Positions 52,608 through 59,321 of a stretch of 59,321 nucleotides of DNA are shown piece by piece. Each line of letters begins with the position of its first letter. The first letter of the stretch is position 1. This stretch comes from Methanonatronarchaeales archaeon (lineage in GTDB: Archaea > Halobacteriota > Methanonatronarchaeia > JAANXF01): NCBI GenBank assembly GCA_018263395.1, contig JAANXF010000007.1:1-59321 (forward strand). Reading direction: 5' to 3'. A program made the translations under genes and the position numbers. A model generated the notes under the pieces. It was not told the DNA's origin. It worked only from the letters and a program-made list of their open reading frames with translations, and did no database searches.

Positions 52608-53914
52608 CTACTTGTGGCAGAACCCACAGTCCCCCTCGGTTACCCCCATTCCCCTGACGTCGGGTTCGACGTTTCTCCCCCCATCAGGCCCAGGATCTCT
52701 GCGCCGTCCGGGGAGAGATGCCCCTGTAATCCTAGGCCGCCGCCTGTCCGTGGCACACCGGGCAGAACTCTGCCCCCACCGCCCCCGGATTCGTCACGTT
52801 CTCCGACATGTCGGTGAGCAGGCGGTAGTTGACCCTGTCGTTTATCTCGCCGTTCGTGTGTACCGCGTGTACGTCGGTGACGTGGCACTGGCCGCAGGTG
52901 AATACGTTGTCCCCGGAGGAGACCTCCGGGCTCTCGTCGTGCTCCACCTCGGCTATCGGGCCCCTCCTGCTCTCGGCCGAATCGTCGAAGGTGAACCTCC
53001 GTCCTCCCGTCATGTGGTACACCCCGTGGCAGTCGCCACAGGAGGCCCTGACAGCTCCCTCCGAGTCCGGACTCAGATACCTGCTCCAGCCCCCTCCGTC
53101 CACCTGTGCCCCGTTTGCGTCGTAAATGGACTCTTCGGGCGTGGACAGTAACTTGCCGTCCCACACACGGACCATGTTGATCGGGTCGGCTATCTGCTTC
53201 GTCTCCTTCTTTGCGCCTCCCTGCGTGAAGGTGACGGCGCCGCTGAAGCTCTGATCCTTACCGATATGGCATCGCAGGCAGTCCTCGCGGGCCATGACGT
53301 CTCTGTGAACCGCGTGAGGGTCGCCAGTCCTGCCCGAGTTCTGCGGGTCTCCGAACCCGTCCAGGTTGCTGGGCGTGTGGCAGTCTCCGCAGAAGAGCGT
53401 CCCGCCGGCGGGCCTGAGACCGGAGGGCTGGGAGGCGAGTCGCGTATTGGGACCGCTCTGCCTGTCCGCGTCGAAAAACCACTCGCCGGAATCCCGGGAA
53501 TTCAGGCCTATGGGGTGGAACGGCGGGTCGTGTTTGCTCCCGCCGCCCATGTGGCAGTTGCCGCACTGTCCCGTGGTCTGCTGTCCGTCGTCGTCGAAGT
53601 CGTAGTCGTGGGTCCCCTCGCCTATGTACGCGGCCTTCCACATGGGCAGCAGACCGAAGAGCGTCGTCCCGTCCCGTCCCGTCTCGATTACGGAGGCATT
53701 TGCGTCTCCACCCCCCCCGTCTCGGTCCTTCCCGGTCGGTGTCGCGGTCTCGACTACGGCGGAGTCGTCCTGTGAGACTGCTGGTTCCACGGCGTCCTAC
53801 GTCCTGTGTAAATATTGGGCTGCTCAACGCTGCGCCGACAAAGGCTGCAAGCACGATTGCAAGGGCGGCAGCGATGGCGATGTGGGACCTTTTCGTCGCG
53901 GATGCTATTGCCAA
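52608..53914 (-). pseudogene. Exported multihaem c-type cytochrome (seven CxxCH), frame-broken
   Basis: A TTG start (53914) gives a signal peptide (HIAIAAALAIVLAAFVGAALS). The frame breaks near 53790-53797. The main body follows with haem sites CGNCH, CGDCH, CLRCH, CGDCH, CGQCH and CPVCH, ending at TAG 52732. Small slips at about 52734-52746 and at the C5 run 52643-52647 restore LQGHLSPDGAEILGLMGG and then DCGFCHK (haem 7, 52614-52628). The three slips sum to a full 435-aa frame. Would act outside the membrane as an electron carrier or terminal reductase. It and its exported neighbour are both damaged, suggesting real decay or locally poor assembly. Confidence 0.7.
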
Positions 53915-54096
53915 AATTCACTATAAAGGTTCTGTCTCGTACACCGATGACGCGGTGGTCAGACAATCTACACCCCGGGGTTACGGCTACGCCCGGGGGC
54001 GCTGGGGACGATTTCGCATGGGACCGACAGGGGCGGGGAAACCCTTAACCGGAACCGGGCGAATCCTAACCTGATCCTGATTCCAACTAACGCGCA

Positions 54097-54171
54097 GGGC
54101 CCATAGCTCAGCCAGGTCAGAGCGCTCGGCTCATAACCGGGTCGTCAAGGGTTCGAATCCCTTTGGGCCCA
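54097..54171 (+). tRNA. tRNA-Met (CAT), elongator type
   Basis: Cloverleaf with acceptor GGGCCCA/TGGGCCC (perfect), D-arm GCTC-AGCCAGGTCAG-AGCG, anticodon stem-loop CTCGG-CTCATAA-CCGGG with CAT at 54132-54134, T-arm AAGGG-TTCGAAT-CCCTT, discriminator A. No intron. The acceptor lacks initiator hallmarks, so elongator Met (or an Ile-CAU precursor) is preferred. The accessory island starts right after it. Confidence 0.9.
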
Positions 54172-54172
54172 T

Positions 54173-54195
54173 AGTGAAAAAAGGTTCACTTTTTC
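54173..54195 (+). terminator. Terminator after tRNA-Met
   Basis: AGTGAA (54173-54178) and TTCACT (54185-54190) form a 6-bp hairpin followed by a T-run. It starts 2 bp after the tRNA and should end its transcript. Confidence 0.55.
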
Positions 54196-54312
54196 TTCGG
54201 TTTTCGGGTGTTTCGTAAAGAATCGGCGCTTCTTAACCTAACTCATTAATCCTTCAACTCATAAAGGTTGCGGAAAACCCGTGGAACTGGAGAACTAAGA
54301 AAAAGGGTTCAG

Positions 54313-54429
54313 TTAGGTTGAGGCTTCCAGGGCTCCGAGGAGAACCGCGAGGAGGAGAAGAACCACCGGTAAAGGGTTCCGCTCCACCCACAGAACCACC
54401 CCACCGACGCCGTGCGTAGAGTCAGGCAT
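54313..54429 (-). CDS. 38-aa single-TM protein, end of the 8-nt-overlap chain
   Basis: ATG 54429: MPDSTHGVGGVVLWVERN, then the helix LPVVLLLLAVLLGALEAST. It overlaps the upstream gene by exactly 8 nt (ATGCCTGA), as do the other junctions in this chain. Last gene before the tRNA-Met region. Looks like a small membrane peptide (holin- or toxin-like size); unproven. Confidence 0.55.
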   Translation of the reverse strand: MPDSTHGVGGVVLWVERNPLPVVLLLLAVLLGALEAST

Positions 54430-54595
54430 AGACCGGAACCTTCACGACCCTGCTGTCTCTCTCCACCGTCACGAACTCCCCAGTCTCGGAGTCCTCCTCC
54501 ACCAAGTTGCGGCAGATACGGACCTCCAGAACCCCGTCGCTTCTTGTGGAGCTCTCCAGGTCTTCAAGCCGGCGCTCTAGGCCCCGTTTACTCAT
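54422..54595 (-). CDS. 57-aa protein with basic/coiled N-terminus
   Basis: MSKRGLERRLEDLESSTRSD at the start, then a beta-rich acidic end (VLEVRICRNLVEEDSETGEF). The first 15 residues closely match the 74-aa protein at 54817-55041 (MSKRGLQNRVEDLEN) and resemble the 78-aa one between them (MTKKNIEKRLENLEN), so these are duplicated modules. Overlaps of 8 nt on both sides (ATGAGTAA upstream, ATGCCTGA downstream). Unknown function; the head could dimerise as a short coiled coil. Confidence 0.6.
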   Translation of the reverse strand: MSKRGLERRLEDLESSTRSDGVLEVRICRNLVEEDSETGEFVTVERDSRVVKVPVYA

Positions 54596-54824
54596 CTGTC
54601 ACCAGCTCGATGAACGGCTCTTCGCCAAGGGCCCTGAGCTCGTCGTTAACCGTTTCCAGACGCTTCACCGCCTCAGTCGCCACGGCTCCCGCCTTCTCCC
54701 GGTCCACGGCCGCGATAAAGGCGTCGATGGCCTCCATCTCCAGGGCCCGGACCTTTTTCTCGTCACAGGTTCCCGTGCAGTTCTCCAGGTTCTCCAGCCT
54801 TTTCTCGATGTTCTTCTTAGTCAT
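54588..54824 (-). CDS. 78-aa protein with shared basic/coiled N-terminus
   Basis: MTKKNIEKRLENLENCTGTCDEKK then helical EAIDAFIAAVDREKAGAVATEAVKRLETVNDELRALG and FIELVTDE. A CTGTC pair follows the head. Two or three heptads suggest a coiled coil. Joined to its neighbours by 8-nt overlaps (ATGACTAA before, ATGAGTAA after). No known family; small helical proteins of this type are common in haloarchaeal viruses and plasmids. Confidence 0.6.
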   Translation of the reverse strand: MTKKNIEKRLENLENCTGTCDEKKVRALEMEAIDAFIAAVDREKAGAVATEAVKRLETVNDELRALGEEPFIELVTDE

Positions 54825-55041
54825 CGGGGTTCTCCTCCCAAATGAGGGGTTTATCCAGCTTCTCTATCTTTTCTCGGCACGTGTCGCAGTGCTCCGCGGC
54901 CTCTTCGAGAGAGGAACCGGCTTCTTCGGTGGTGAGAGGTGGGTCAAGCACGGCGGCGATCCAGCGGCGACACCTCTGGGACCCATGCGGGGAACGGTTT
55001 TCCAGGTCCTCAACCCTGTTCTGTAAGCCGCGTTTACTCAT
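54817..55041 (-). CDS. 74-aa protein with shared basic/coiled N-terminus
   Basis: MSKRGLQNRVEDLENRSPHGSQR, then WIAAVLDPPLTTEEAGSSLEEAAEHCDTCREKIEKLDKPLIW. An H-C-x-x-C stretch (EHCDTCRE) could bind zinc. Starts inside the previous stop (ATGAGTAA, 8 nt). Same N-terminal module as the 57-aa gene further on. Function unknown. Confidence 0.6.
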   Translation of the reverse strand: MSKRGLQNRVEDLENRSPHGSQRCRRWIAAVLDPPLTTEEAGSSLEEAAEHCDTCREKIEKLDKPLIWEENPDD

Positions 55042-55357
55042 ACCTGATAACCTCTTCTTTCTCGTCTTGTTCTTCGAGGGCTTCGATGCGTTCCCGGAGC
55101 TCCTCCAGGTCGCGGTCCTTCAGGATGCCGTTGGCGACGTTGACGGTGTAGGCCAGTGTACGGATCCATTTCTGCCTTACTCGTTCGTTCTCCTTGTCGT
55201 AGACGCGGCCGCTCTCCACTTTGCGTTTAGCCTCTTCGAGAGCCGGGACGAGGGCCTCAAGGAGGCCGTCCCTCCCCCCATACGGGGGGTTGCCTGAATC
55301 AGAGGCGTCTCCGCTGGTTTCGGGTCCGTTGCCGGGCTGTGAGGGGTTTTCAGTCAT
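55034..55357 (-). CDS. 107-aa helical island protein
   Basis: A Gly/Ser/Pro-rich head (MTENPSQPGNGPETSGDASD) is followed by helices: GLLEALVPALEEAKRKVESGRVYD, KWIRTLAYTVNVANGILKDRDLEELRERIEALEEQDEKEE, ending in a coiled coil. RKWIR/AYTVN features recall small virus- or plasmid-encoded proteins of haloarchaea. First gene of the 8-nt-overlap chain; the 47-aa gene lies 31 bp upstream. Confidence 0.62.
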   Translation of the reverse strand: MTENPSQPGNGPETSGDASDSGNPPYGGRDGLLEALVPALEEAKRKVESGRVYDKENERVRQKWIRTLAYTVNVANGILKDRDLEELRERIEALEEQDEKEEVIRYE

Positions 55358-55388
55358 GTCTTAACACCTGTTTGTGGACGGATAGTCT

Positions 55389-55532
55389 TTATGGCGTGAA
55401 TACCTTTTTCACGACGTGAAGCCCTTGTGGCTTTTCGTCGTTGCGGTGTTTCCGGGCCTCTAAGTAGGGGTTTAGGTGTCGAAGAGCTTGGAGCTCCAAG
55501 GCGGCCGGGACGTTATCGACCTTCAGCTTCAT
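55389..55532 (-). CDS. 47-aa basic small protein
   Basis: Start MKLKVDNVPAALELQALRHL at ATG 55532 with a strong GGAGGTG 5 nt upstream; ends KPQGLHVVKKVFTP. Amphipathic and basic, possibly nucleic-acid binding. A slightly longer upstream frame lacks a ribosome site. Heads the small-gene operon (55532 to 54313). Confidence 0.55.
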   Translation of the reverse strand: MKLKVDNVPAALELQALRHLNPYLEARKHRNDEKPQGLHVVKKVFTP

Positions 55533-55614
55533 ACCTGCACCTCCAGGTAGGTAACGGGGTTTCCGTGAGGGGGCCAGGTCCCTAGGCATTGAAGGCAAAG
55601 ATAACGCTTAAACC

Positions 55615-55710
55615 GCTGGCCGAAGGCCAGAAAAAGCGCCGAACCAGTTTCGACACCTAGCGCCATCGATACAATCCCGGCGAGGCCGTTTAGACCGACT
55701 AAGAGGTCAT
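55615..55710 (-). pseudogene. Broken copy of the 2.5-kb small membrane protein
   Basis: Read leftward, GLNGLAGIVSMALGVETGS then ALFLAFG matches the 55-aa protein at 2410-2577 (FAGFVSLAIGVETGSALFLAFG). The start side is interrupted by a TAG and the second helix is replaced by unrelated sequence after AFG. DNA similarity is high but not perfect. A diverged relic, suggesting that this gene travels with accessory DNA. Confidence 0.6.
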
Positions 55711-55780
55711 TTCAAAAAGGTTTATGGCGGGTTGAACCCATCTCGCACCTGGAGGAGATGGGGAAATGGATTATGAAGGA

Positions 55781-58700
55781 CTAACGGACGAACAGAACCA
55801 TCCAGCAAATTAGCTTTACTTCATCCTCCTTGATGGGTGGTAGGGGGTCGGGGGCTTCGAAGGGCTGGAAACCGAACTCCTTCACCTTTCCAATCAGTAA
55901 CCTACTTTTCTCGACCGGGCCATGTCCTTCGCTTTCATATATGTCTCGAAGCTCTCGATCATACCTCCTACCCCTCGGTGCCTCTACAGACTCCACGATT
56001 TCCTGCCGATCCTCGTCGACGTCGTTGGGCCAGTGGTTCCTTAGATGCTCACCTATCTCCCGGTACAACCTCCGGATTTTCGGCTGAACCTCTTTCGGGT
56101 CCGTCTGTTTTTGCCACTGCCTAAAAATGTCGTCCCTGACGACTTCCCAGGCGTCGTAGACCTCTTCCCGCATCGAGTCCGGCAACGCCCTCTCCGTTTC
56201 CGGGCCGCACTCTATACGCTTTAGACAGGTCAAGGTATCCCCCACGATATCTTCTTCGTCCTCGATGCCGCGAGGTATGAACCTCATAAAGACTTCGTCG
56301 CCTACCCGTGCGCAGAAGAAGAAACCGGGTTCTTCACCTTGGAATCCGGAGCCTACTGCCCAGGGGAGACCGGTTATCTGGTCGCCTCGGTCCTCAAGCG
56401 CCTTCCTTAGCTCCTGTCTGTACTCTTCGCCTGAATAGGCTGCGGCCGTTCTTCCTCCCTTCTCAAAGAAATCCTTTTTCTCGTCCTTGATGGAGCCGAT
56501 GTCCTGAAGCTTCTCCCTGAAGCTTTGCTGAAGGGACTCCATGTCGGGGAAAACCTCTCCGCTCACCCCTATGGAGCGAGCGGCTTGCGTCAATTTTCGG
56601 CGCACCCGGCTTTCAAGTTCGAGCAGGTCATCCAGTCTCTCCTCTGGGAAAAAGGTTGTCGGGTAGATCTCTGAATGGTTCGAGTTTATCCGGTCGATCC
56701 GTCCGTTTCGCTGAACCACCCTCATCGGGTTCCAGGGTAGGTCGTAGTTGATAACGTTGCGGGCCTCCTGAAGATTGACGCCTTGACCCAGAACGTCCGT
56801 CGTTACCAAGATGTCGAACTCGTCTTCGGTTCCAGGGGGTGCATCGGTCGAGTTGGGGGCGAAGCCGTGGACAGCCTTTATCCGGTTAATGCCTCTCTTT
56901 GAGATTTCACCGGAGACCCCAGCAATCCGGTCTCTGTAGCACTTCAGTTCCTCGTCTTCTGAAACAATTTTCTCAAGGTAGTCCAGTATCCAGTCAACCG
57001 TGTCCTCGTAGTAGGAGAACAAAAGGACTTTGCGGTTCTTCCTAAACACTTCCTCTACACTCTCCTCGGTGACTCTTGATCTATCCGCGTCGCTTCGTGC
57101 CTGCTCGACTACGTCGTGAAGGGTTTCACGCAGAGCCTGAAGTTTCTCGTCCTCCTCCGGGTCAACACTTCGAGCCCCTTGGTGCCACCTTTTCAGGATT
57201 TCTAAGTCGTTCTCGATGTCTTTCCTGAGTCCAGAGTAATCCATTTCCATCGAGGAGAGTGTTAAACGGCCGTCTCCGGCCTCTCCAAACACTTCGTCCA
57301 GGGCCTCGTCGCTGTCGGTTTCGATCCATTCGTCTATGGCTTCTGGCTCCGGGAAGTAGCCTTCCTCCATCAGGTCGAGGGCCGCCCGGTTCTGCGTAAT
57401 CATTTTTTCCAAGGTGTTGGCGAAGGCGTAACTGGAGGATTCGAACCGTTTGAGAACCCCGGTTCTAAGCAGCCCCACGAGTTGGAGCTCCATCACATCC
57501 GCCTCTCCCTTTAGATAGTAGGAGGGTCGGTATCTCGCCAGTGTCAGTCCTGCTTCTTCATGGTCGCCAGCTGCGAGGCCACTGGCAACGTCGTTGAAGT
57601 AGTCGTCGCCGAAGGTTTCCGAAAATGTGTAATCCACTCGTTTGGGCTTCGGGTCCGGGAAATTGATACGTACCTCGCCGCCCTCTCCGTCGGGCATCGT
57701 GGCGTCTCGGTAGTAATCCTTGATGAATCGCCGGGTGCGTCGAACGGTTGTCTGGTCAAGGACGTCGAACAGCATGTCGGGGCTGAGGTCGGTTGGGTCC
57801 TCCGCTTGAGCCTCTTTGAACCTGTCACGGAGCGACCTGATTCCTTCGTTTGCGAACTCGGCGTCGTTGTCGATGAAGTAGTTCAGGAGGTAGTAAAGGT
57901 CCCAGAGCGAGTTGTTCACCGGTGTAGCCGTCAACATGACGAGGTCTTTCGGTGGGTCCCCCATGAGCAGGTTCCTTAGTGCGTGTGACTGCTTCGATCC
58001 GGGGTTGCGGAAGGCGTGGGCTTCGTCGATGACTACGAGTTGGTACTCGTCGATATCCAGGTTCAAATTGTTTCTACGGCCTCCGAGTTGGCGTTCGTTC
58101 CGGAGTTGCACGTAGGAAACGGTTTCGAACTGGACACCCCACTCGGGGGCTTTGCTGCTCCACATACCGTCCCTTAGGTACGCCGGGGCGACGACGAGTG
58201 CTCGCTGCCTGTTCCGCTGGACGTACTGGTGGAGCAGTTCCCCGGCGATGTAGGTCTTTCCCAGCCCTACCTCGTCGGCCACGATGACTCCGCCGTGGTT
58301 TTCTAGGAAACGATTCGCTCTTCTTACGGCGTCCTCCTGGAAGTTGGCTAAATTGATGCCGCCGTCTTCCTCCCTCTCCTTCTCAATCTCTTCGCCGTAC
58401 CGCTCGTACAGGACCCGGAGATAGATCAGGTAGGGATCGAAGGGCTGGAACCTCTCCCTGTAAAGATCCGTCAGGTCGAACTCTTCGGCTTCCCTCCATA
58501 TGTCTTCGAACCATTCCTTGACGCGGCCAGTGACGTGCGGGTCGTAAGCTCCGAGGTTCAGCTCCAGGTTCGAGTTAAGACCGGCTCCTGTGAAGTTCGA
58601 GGACCCGGCGACTACCCCTTCGGTGTCTGAGAATAAGTAGGCCTTTCCATGGACGAAGCCCTCCTCGTACCTCCTTACCTCTACCCGGTCACTCTCCAAG

Positions 58701-59083
58701 AAACCGATTAGCTCTTGAAGACCTTCATCCACCTCTCTAGAGAACCCGAGCAGGTTCCTGTCCCGCTCCAGGTTCTCGTCAAGGGTCTTCAGAGCCGCGT
58801 CGACCTGTTTACGCTGGTAATCCTCTCCCCTCGGTTCTTCCGGCTTCCTCCACCTTTCGACACCTTCCTGCTCCGGCTGCGCACCGAGCAAAAGCCTCAG
58901 TCGGTCGACGTGGTTCAGCCCTTCAGCTACGGAGAAAAACCCTTTCGGGTTGAAATAACCCGTTACGATGTCCAGGTCCGGTTCATCAGCAAGCTTGCTG
59001 TCTAAATCTTCAAGGTAGGCATTGATAGCCGTAGCGAGCGTGTTTCCATCCCGGTTATCGACAAACTGAGGCTGCCTAGACAT
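55781..59083 (-). CDS. Phospholipase-D-like + SNF2/DEAH helicase fusion
   Basis: 1,100 aa from ATG 59083. N-terminal PLD/HKD-like domain (about 1-210): VTGYFNPKGFFSV and FVHGKAYLF...GVVAGSSNFTGAGL, a nuclease-type HxK motif. Helicase (about 245-900): NFQEDAVRRANRF, VADEVGLGKTYIA (Walker A), VVIDEAHAFRNPGS, LTATPVNNSLWDLYYLL, VLLFSYYEDTVDWI, LVTTDVLGQGVNLQEA, NPMRVVQRNGRIDRI. The C-terminal 200 residues are unrecognised. It overlaps a probable DNA methylase gene by one base. Fits DNA-surveillance or anti-phage enzymes such as DISARM- or BREX-related helicases, but the fused PLD is not the classic DISARM DrmD layout. Confidence 0.85.
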   Translation of the reverse strand: MSRQPQFVDNRDGNTLATAINAYLEDLDSKLADEPDLDIVTGYFNPKGFFSVAEGLNHVDRLRLLLGAQPEQEGVERWRKPEEPRGEDYQRKQVDAALKTLDENLERDRNLLGFSREVDEGLQELIGFLESDRVEVRRYEEGFVHGKAYLFSDTEGVVAGSSNFTGAGLNSNLELNLGAYDPHVTGRVKEWFEDIWREAEEFDLTDLYRERFQPFDPYLIYLRVLYERYGEEIEKEREEDGGINLANFQEDAVRRANRFLENHGGVIVADEVGLGKTYIAGELLHQYVQRNRQRALVVAPAYLRDGMWSSKAPEWGVQFETVSYVQLRNERQLGGRRNNLNLDIDEYQLVVIDEAHAFRNPGSKQSHALRNLLMGDPPKDLVMLTATPVNNSLWDLYYLLNYFIDNDAEFANEGIRSLRDRFKEAQAEDPTDLSPDMLFDVLDQTTVRRTRRFIKDYYRDATMPDGEGGEVRINFPDPKPKRVDYTFSETFGDDYFNDVASGLAAGDHEEAGLTLARYRPSYYLKGEADVMELQLVGLLRTGVLKRFESSSYAFANTLEKMITQNRAALDLMEEGYFPEPEAIDEWIETDSDEALDEVFGEAGDGRLTLSSMEMDYSGLRKDIENDLEILKRWHQGARSVDPEEDEKLQALRETLHDVVEQARSDADRSRVTEESVEEVFRKNRKVLLFSYYEDTVDWILDYLEKIVSEDEELKCYRDRIAGVSGEISKRGINRIKAVHGFAPNSTDAPPGTEDEFDILVTTDVLGQGVNLQEARNVINYDLPWNPMRVVQRNGRIDRINSNHSEIYPTTFFPEERLDDLLELESRVRRKLTQAARSIGVSGEVFPDMESLQQSFREKLQDIGSIKDEKKDFFEKGGRTAAAYSGEEYRQELRKALEDRGDQITGLPWAVGSGFQGEEPGFFFCARVGDEVFMRFIPRGIEDEEDIVGDTLTCLKRIECGPETERALPDSMREEVYDAWEVVRDDIFRQWQKQTDPKEVQPKIRRLYREIGEHLRNHWPNDVDEDRQEIVESVEAPRGRRYDRELRDIYESEGHGPVEKSRLLIGKVKEFGFQPFEAPDPLPPIKEDEVKLICWMVLFVR

Positions 59084-59321
59084 CAATCAGTCTCCTCCAC
59101 AGACTCGCCGTCTACATGTTCCAAGTCTAACTTCTCCGCCCATTCGTCATAGTATTCAAGCACATTTTTTAGCCTCTCCTCGTAATCCCAACCCACGTGG
59201 AAAGTCTCAAAGATAATTTCCACGTGTTCACGGGATAATCCGTAGAGGTGTGCGACAAGGGCATCGAGTTCGTATATCCTGTCTAGTTCTTCTTTTTCTT
59301 CGAGTTGGCCGTACTCTGCGC
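59083..59321 (-). CDS. C-terminus of a probable Eco57I-like DNA methylase (partial)
   Basis: The last 78 residues of a protein entering from the right edge: ELDALVAHLYGLSREHVEII then FETFHVGWDYEERLKNVLEYYDEW and an acidic tail ending ESVEETD. This ending (D-x-L-V-A-x-L-Y-G-L, then F and W blocks) is characteristic of large N6-adenine methylase/type IIG proteins. The TGA overlaps the helicase ATG by one base, so methylase and PLD-helicase form one operon. Confidence 0.65.
   Translation of the reverse strand, partial: AEYGQLEEKEELDRIYELDALVAHLYGLSREHVEIIFETFHVGWDYEERLKNVLEYYDEWAEKLDLEHVDGESVEETD

Follow-up and report, generated by a model that had tools for sequence, protein, structure and literature searches.

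The endonuclease of the CglI and NgoAVII restriction systems is of the phospholipase D (PLD) type. In these systems a methylase, an endonuclease, and a DEAD-family helicase are combined for ATP-dependent DNA cleavage (PMC4267653). SauUSI, an endonuclease that translocates in an ATP-dependent manner, dimerises through the nuclease domains (PMC7913695). Type-2 BREX-related (BR) systems couple an HKD-Swi2/Snf2 effector with an N6-methyltransferase (PMC12839542), and class I DISARM and ARMADA contain a pair of BrxHII/RapA-like helicase and PglX-like methylase (PMC12458937). tRNA genes are common targets of archaeal integrating elements (PMC4158269). We analysed a contig (C20) of 59,321 nt from a 1.17-Mb, 78%-complete archaeal bin (G000), hereafter the window, which carries genes related to these systems right of a tRNA-Met gene. 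Taken as a whole, the locus is probably an integrative element at tRNA-Met with a two-gene restriction-modification-like cargo, a reading that we hold with moderate confidence. In kind, the island is ordinary: a mobile element with defence cargo.

Layout right of tRNA-Met

All genes of interest right of tRNA-Met are encoded on the minus strand (Table 1), and the G+C content drops from 64.0% (5-kb windows, s.d. 2.9) to 55.4% right of tRNA-Met. The original prediction, made from the sequence of the window, was partly confirmed as an observation and partly supported in its interpretation. It had placed a PLD-helicase gene directly right of tRNA-Met, followed by six or so tiny genes; the island does begin there, but the PLD-SNF2 gene itself ends 1.6 kb from the tRNA, and the tiny genes come down to five plausible ones, with t3 ending ~250 bp from tRNA-Met. 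Immediately left of tRNA-Met, the window encodes a multihaem-like protein with many CxxCH motifs (52732-53790, minus strand).

Table 1. Features of the island and its bordering tRNA gene (window coordinates).
Feature	Coordinates	Strand	Basis or remark
tRNA-Met(CAT)	54097-54171	+	ARAGORN
t3, 57 aa, N-terminal RRLEDLE module	54422-54595	-	ORF list and sequence
t2, 78 aa, N-terminal RRLEDLE module	54588-54824	-	ORF list and sequence
t1, 74 aa, N-terminal RRLEDLE module	54817-55041	-	ORF list and sequence
P3, 107 aa, predicted helical hairpin, family found in archaeal integrase/primase elements	55034-55357	-	
Possible tiny gene, 47 aa counted from its ATG	55389-55532	-	ORF and sequence
HKD (PLD) nuclease - Swi2/Snf2 helicase protein, 1101 aa	55781-59086	-	ATG start at 59083
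Type IIG-like N6-adenine methyltransferase, C-terminal 78 aa only	59083-59319	-	Cut by contig end

Element boundary at tRNA-Met

As computed directly from the contigs, the island begins exactly at the 3' end of tRNA-Met, whose last base (54171) is its left edge; the predicted accessory island after a tRNA is thereby sharpened to an integrated element with a defined left boundary. Contig C16 is identical from its first base to 127 bp of the window (54045-54171), diverges at the base after the tRNA-Met 3' end, and then carries chromosomal genes. Assembly with k = 127 would produce such a terminal identity at a branch point, and on the supposition that this k was used we infer a mixed population, in one part of which tRNA-Met is joined directly to C16 (the empty site) while the other part carries the element. 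C16 might instead be a duplicated tRNA-Met region, in which case the element boundary would not be demonstrated. The copies in the window and on C16 each hold the whole tRNA-Met and 52 bp upstream, as a duplication would have it, but the identical stretch runs exactly from base 1 of C16 to where the tRNA ends, just as two contigs sharing a de Bruijn k-mer would show, C16 runs on into chromosomal genes, and genome G002 has an insertion with a flanking repeat at the same tRNA-Met, which makes a duplication rather unlikely.

The insertion in G002, a genome of the same class, is a ~6-kb element after the same tRNA-Met that contains integrase pieces and at whose far end tRNA positions 33-76 recur (41 bases matched exactly). 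A similar tRNA-Met fragment is present in G001. These repeats indicate that the 3' half of tRNA-Met is used as attachment site in this class, and the 3' half of the window tRNA-Met is the probable attachment site here. Among the bin contigs searched, C16 holds the only copy of the tRNA-Met repeat besides that in the window; the far end of the element would lie beyond the contig. The G002 element (L116, C1:955371-961489) carries its integrase as split pieces, together with genes that by eye encode AbiEii-like nucleotidyltransferases.

Under the favoured reading of an integrative element, positions 54172-59321 would be its left part, inserted at the 3' end of tRNA-Met, with P3 and three tandem tiny coiled-coil genes as the backbone present here and an integrase and a primase, expected from relatives, beyond the contig end. 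The boundary at the tRNA 3' end is shared with archaeal tRNA-integrated plasmid- or virus-like elements, and P3 and the tiny genes are shared with those of the integrase/primase kind. The island differs from them in that right end, integrase, and primase are not on the contig: C20 contains none of the three up to its end at 59321, and the rightward extension proposed earlier as a check failed at the same point, as none of the bin contigs searched continues the methylase past it. The boundary is informative on how a tRNA-Met hotspot carries defence cargo in a thinly sampled archaeal class.

The sole integrase of the bin is located on C6 beside other chromosomal genes; a role of C6 as the other end of the element is not supported, since a tRNA-Met fragment is absent from it and the genes that follow the integrase are chromosomal. 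The protein (L060: 475-1710) is a tyrosine integrase whose C-terminus bears a zinc ribbon (DZR), an architecture shared with the integrases of the P3-bearing elements L051 and L053, and C6 begins inside a second element.

The methylase and helicase-nuclease pair

The predicted fusion of a PLD-like nuclease to a SNF2 helicase was borne out by Pfam, which identified PLDc_2 (1.6e-10), SNF2-rel_dom (2.1e-12), and Helicase_C (2.1e-15) in the 1,101-aa protein. Its top PADLOC profile is 'HKD+Snf2' (1.4e-57), with DrmD next, and PDB sequence and fold searches led to Snf2 remodellers and RapA (the fold model is weak, pLDDT 67.5). No match was found in the viral contigs searched. Read directly from 15 aligned sequences, residues H145, K147, and G160-N163 of the PLD site (HxK...GSSN), K276 of Walker A, and D353/E354/H356 of Walker B are invariant and motif VI (QRxGRIDR) is nearly so, and all these motifs are intact in the window copy. 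The Asp of the HKD motif has a non-canonical spacing and is not conserved across the family. The window copy terminates in ...CWMVLFVR, while close haloarchaeal relatives have ~20 extra residues and end in SQVTF or similar; this C-terminal tail is also missing from the bacterial relative L081. With the methylase mostly missing in the window and the helicase without this tail, the window copy may be altered.

The one-base overlap with an Eco57I-like methylase was correctly predicted, the stop codon TGA of the methylase and the ATG of the helicase sharing one base (...GACTGATTGATGTCT...), but an Eco57I domain is absent from the 78-aa C-terminal fragment, which is all of the methylase that lies inside the window. 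The search against defence profiles that had been proposed recovered both proteins, the fragment by matching C-terminal positions 1315-1369 of the PADLOC type IIG MTase profile (6.5e-9), and PADLOC thus already has separate profiles for the two. The fragment is 67% identical to the C-terminus of an intact relative (L041) of 1,376 aa, in which Pfam detects Eco57I (PF07669, 2.8e-17) and PADLOC REase_MTase_IIG (2e-264) and DrmMI (1.8e-70). An Eco57I-type methyltransferase as in type IIG enzymes is therefore present in the relatives, and the window has its C-terminus. AMGSGHF and NPPW are invariant among eight aligned methylase relatives; the methylase profile had no match in the PDB. A second type IIG/DrmMI-like methylase of 1390 aa is encoded stand-alone on contig C15 of the bin (L061: 9352-13524) and is 35% identical to that of the pair over 600 aa; it lies near the contig end, with no helicase partner before the contig stops.

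Methylase and PLD-SNF2 helicase form a conserved two-gene module (bicistron) in archaea and bacteria, a direct result of tblastn comparison that strengthens the earlier restriction-type interpretation. Seventeen of 18 full-length helicase relatives (36-75% identity), some of them drawn from overlapping collections and thus not fully independent, have an Eco57I-type N6-adenine methylase of ~1,320-1,380 aa directly upstream on the same strand, joined by an overlap or a short gap; only in one MAG, of Planctomycetota, does an insert of ~4 kb intervene. The methylase also precedes the helicase in the partial loci L078 and L089. The pair is spread over Halobacteria (archaeal hosts include Halovenus, Natronomonas, Halolamina, Natrarchaeobius, Halorubrum, Haloplanus, Natronococcus, and Halalkalicoccus), Actinomycetota, and other bacteria (bacterial hosts include Mycobacterium, Rhodococcus, Paenarthrobacter, Euzebya, and bacterial MAGs). 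Among more distant helicases (26-34%), a methylase in the neighbourhood is also common, in some cases separated from the helicase by an additional gene. No large third gene recurs within ~4-10 kb on either side of the pair in 17 relatives.

The pair is best read as an ATP-dependent, restriction-modification-like system that probably destroys unmarked foreign DNA. Self-marking by methylation and attack on unmarked DNA are proposed from domain knowledge and from the analogues CglI/NgoAVII, SauUSI, and Type-2 BREX-related systems. In this mechanism, the large Eco57I-type methyltransferase (NPPW) would methylate adenines at targets picked by its own recognition domain and so mark self DNA, while the HKD-Swi2/Snf2 protein, whose translation would be coupled to that of the methylase on a shared mRNA, would load on unmarked DNA and translocate along the duplex by its Snf2 motor. 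The PLD nuclease, which would need pairing with a second subunit, would then cut the unmarked DNA. Adenine methylation, target sensing through the methylase, DNA cleavage, and an antiviral role are all predicted. The methylase might also be a complete, self-cutting type IIG enzyme with the PLD-SNF2 protein as accessory translocase, as the PADLOC label of its family, REase_MTase_IIG, would suggest. We regard this as improbable: eight aligned relatives have no invariant Lys in the N-terminal ~500 aa and hence no visible conserved ExK nuclease motif, no Pfam nuclease domain was found in the N-terminus of the two relatives scanned (only Eco57I plus weak MmeI/N6_Mtase matches in the whole protein), and H, K, and GSSN of the partner's PLD site do not vary.

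In CglI/NgoAVII, a methyltransferase, an endonuclease, and an ATP-dependent helicase act together (PMC4267653), as they would in the pair, but there the nuclease and the DEAD-family helicase are separate proteins, whereas here PLD is N-terminally fused to a motor of the Swi2/Snf2 kind and accompanied by an Eco57I-type methylase of ~1370 aa. SauUSI (PMC7913695) is, as predicted for the helicase of the pair, a nuclease-helicase driven by ATP that translocates and cleaves as a dimer of its nuclease domains; in contrast to the proposal for the pair, its targets are methylated and it works without a methylase of its own. The N-terminal HKD domain on a Swi2/Snf2 helicase, present in the window protein, and the accompanying N6-MTase are shared with Type-2 BR and COG1743-DUF499-SNF2-PLDc systems (PMC12839542, PMC7641849), from which the pair appears to differ in that no conserved DUF499 ATPase or DUF3780 neighbour was seen and no DUF1156 was found in the methylase (by Pfam in two relatives). 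No conserved ORF of DUF499 size lies beside the pair in the relatives, for which some of the neighbour ORFs were model-scanned and to which the window copy, cut by the contig end, adds no flank on that side. With class I DISARM and ARMADA the pair has in common a related SNF2/RapA-like helicase and a PglX/DrmMI-like NPPW methylase, and class I DISARM also has a PLD nuclease (DrmC). In contrast to both, the pair has its PLD fused to the helicase and has no conserved DrmA, DrmB, or YprA gene, the core of DrmA helicase and DrmB (DUF1998) not being conserved beside it in 17 relatives (in the window, the contig stops within the methylase).

These likenesses could mean that a larger known system (class I DISARM, ARMADA, or BREX-related with DUF499) is truncated here, with the pair at its edge and its remainder right of the contig end, and the resemblance of the helicase to DrmD (NCBIfam, 2.3e-46) and of the methylase to DrmMI, the helicase-methylase pair of DISARM I/ARMADA (PMC12458937), and the HKD-Swi2/Snf2 helicase of Type-2 BR (PMC12839542) all fit such an origin. 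We nevertheless judge it very unlikely, because no conserved large third gene flanks the pair within ~4-10 kb in relatives, no DUF1156 domain was found in the methylase of two relatives, and curated cut-offs were missed widely, with 158.6 bits against 610 for DrmD and 23.9 against 133 for DrmC. A relative's methylase likewise missed the cut-offs for PglX (29.7 bits against 500 for BREX-1, 20.9 against 400 for BREX-2). The pair is not filed under BR, nor under DISARM or BREX, from whose textbook layout the original prediction had already set it apart. By analogy it would work like an ATP-dependent restriction-modification system, a variant of known helicase-nuclease-plus-methylase defences that is minimal, well conserved, and apparently unnamed; no name for the exact two-gene form was found in the literature searched, although one may exist. 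We tentatively suggest, as a possibility rather than an expectation, that the bicistron of ~1370-aa NPPW methylase and HKD-Swi2/Snf2 protein is a stand-alone, unnamed family of ATP-dependent restriction-modification systems in Halobacteria, the lineage of the window, and several bacterial phyla, in which the helicase-nuclease core of DISARM, ARMADA, and BREX-related systems has the methylase as its sole partner. If the pair does work alone, it would be a minimal form of the helicase and methylase core inside larger defence systems and would allow the role of this core without DrmAB, DUF499, or YprA partners to be asked.

In two haloarchaeal loci, a divergent McrB-like gene (MrcB_N and AAA_5) and a partner adjoin the pair (L041, 1723-6062; L066, 133-3990), possibly as a joint defence cassette. 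On a Euzebya plasmid (L068, 11369-12217), the helicase overlaps a gene annotated as a phosphorothioated-DNA-binding restriction endonuclease.

P3 and the tiny genes

The tiny genes are the mobile element's own parts and, contrary to what the earlier interpretation had suggested, do not belong to the defence pair. By direct count, relatives of P3 or of the tiny genes were found near the helicase in none of ~40 helicase loci; the pair therefore recurs elsewhere as anticipated, but its link to a chain of small ORFs does not. Relatives of P3 occur in 14 other genomes of the phylum, and in 12 of these 14 an integrase and/or primase homologue lies within 10 kb (<=10 kb); in example loci, Pfam identified Phage_integrase with D5_N, Prim-Pol, PriCT_2, or NrS-1-type polymerase domains. 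A fifteenth P3 match (G115) was rejected as a chance match in the wrong frame. A role of the tiny genes as subunits or regulators of the defence pair is scarcely credible: they share strand and orientation with the helicase at a distance of <0.5 kb, and small, rapidly evolving proteins accompany some HKD-SF2 helicase systems (PMC10853773), but ~250 bp lie between the end of the helicase gene and the nearest tiny gene, relatives of P3 belong to integrase/primase elements, the ~40 helicase loci gave no match, and where one genome encodes a helicase as well as a P3 relative (G090, G099, and G110), the two are found at separate locations. The chain of small genes is thereby freed from a misleading association with defence.

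P3 has a predicted fold of a two-helix hairpin (pLDDT 82), for which a fold search returned no significant viral match; no convincing Pfam or PHROG family and no match among the viral contigs or phage genomes searched were found for its sequence. Genes t1-t3 share an N-terminal module of ~15 aa, M(S/T)K...R(V/L)E(D/N)LE, and similar 8-bp overlaps join P3 to t1 (ATGAGTAA), t1 to t2 (ATGACTAA), and t2 to t3 (ATGAGTAA). Their description as duplicates holds for module and overlaps, but not over the full length, t2 and t3 being 34% and 28% identical to t1, respectively. The matching overlaps of P3, t1, t2, and t3 are the pattern of putative translationally coupled tandem duplicates. Directly after P3 relatives there is often a tiny gene that has this N-terminal module, R(R/K)(L/V)..LE, and in L052 three such genes follow in a row.
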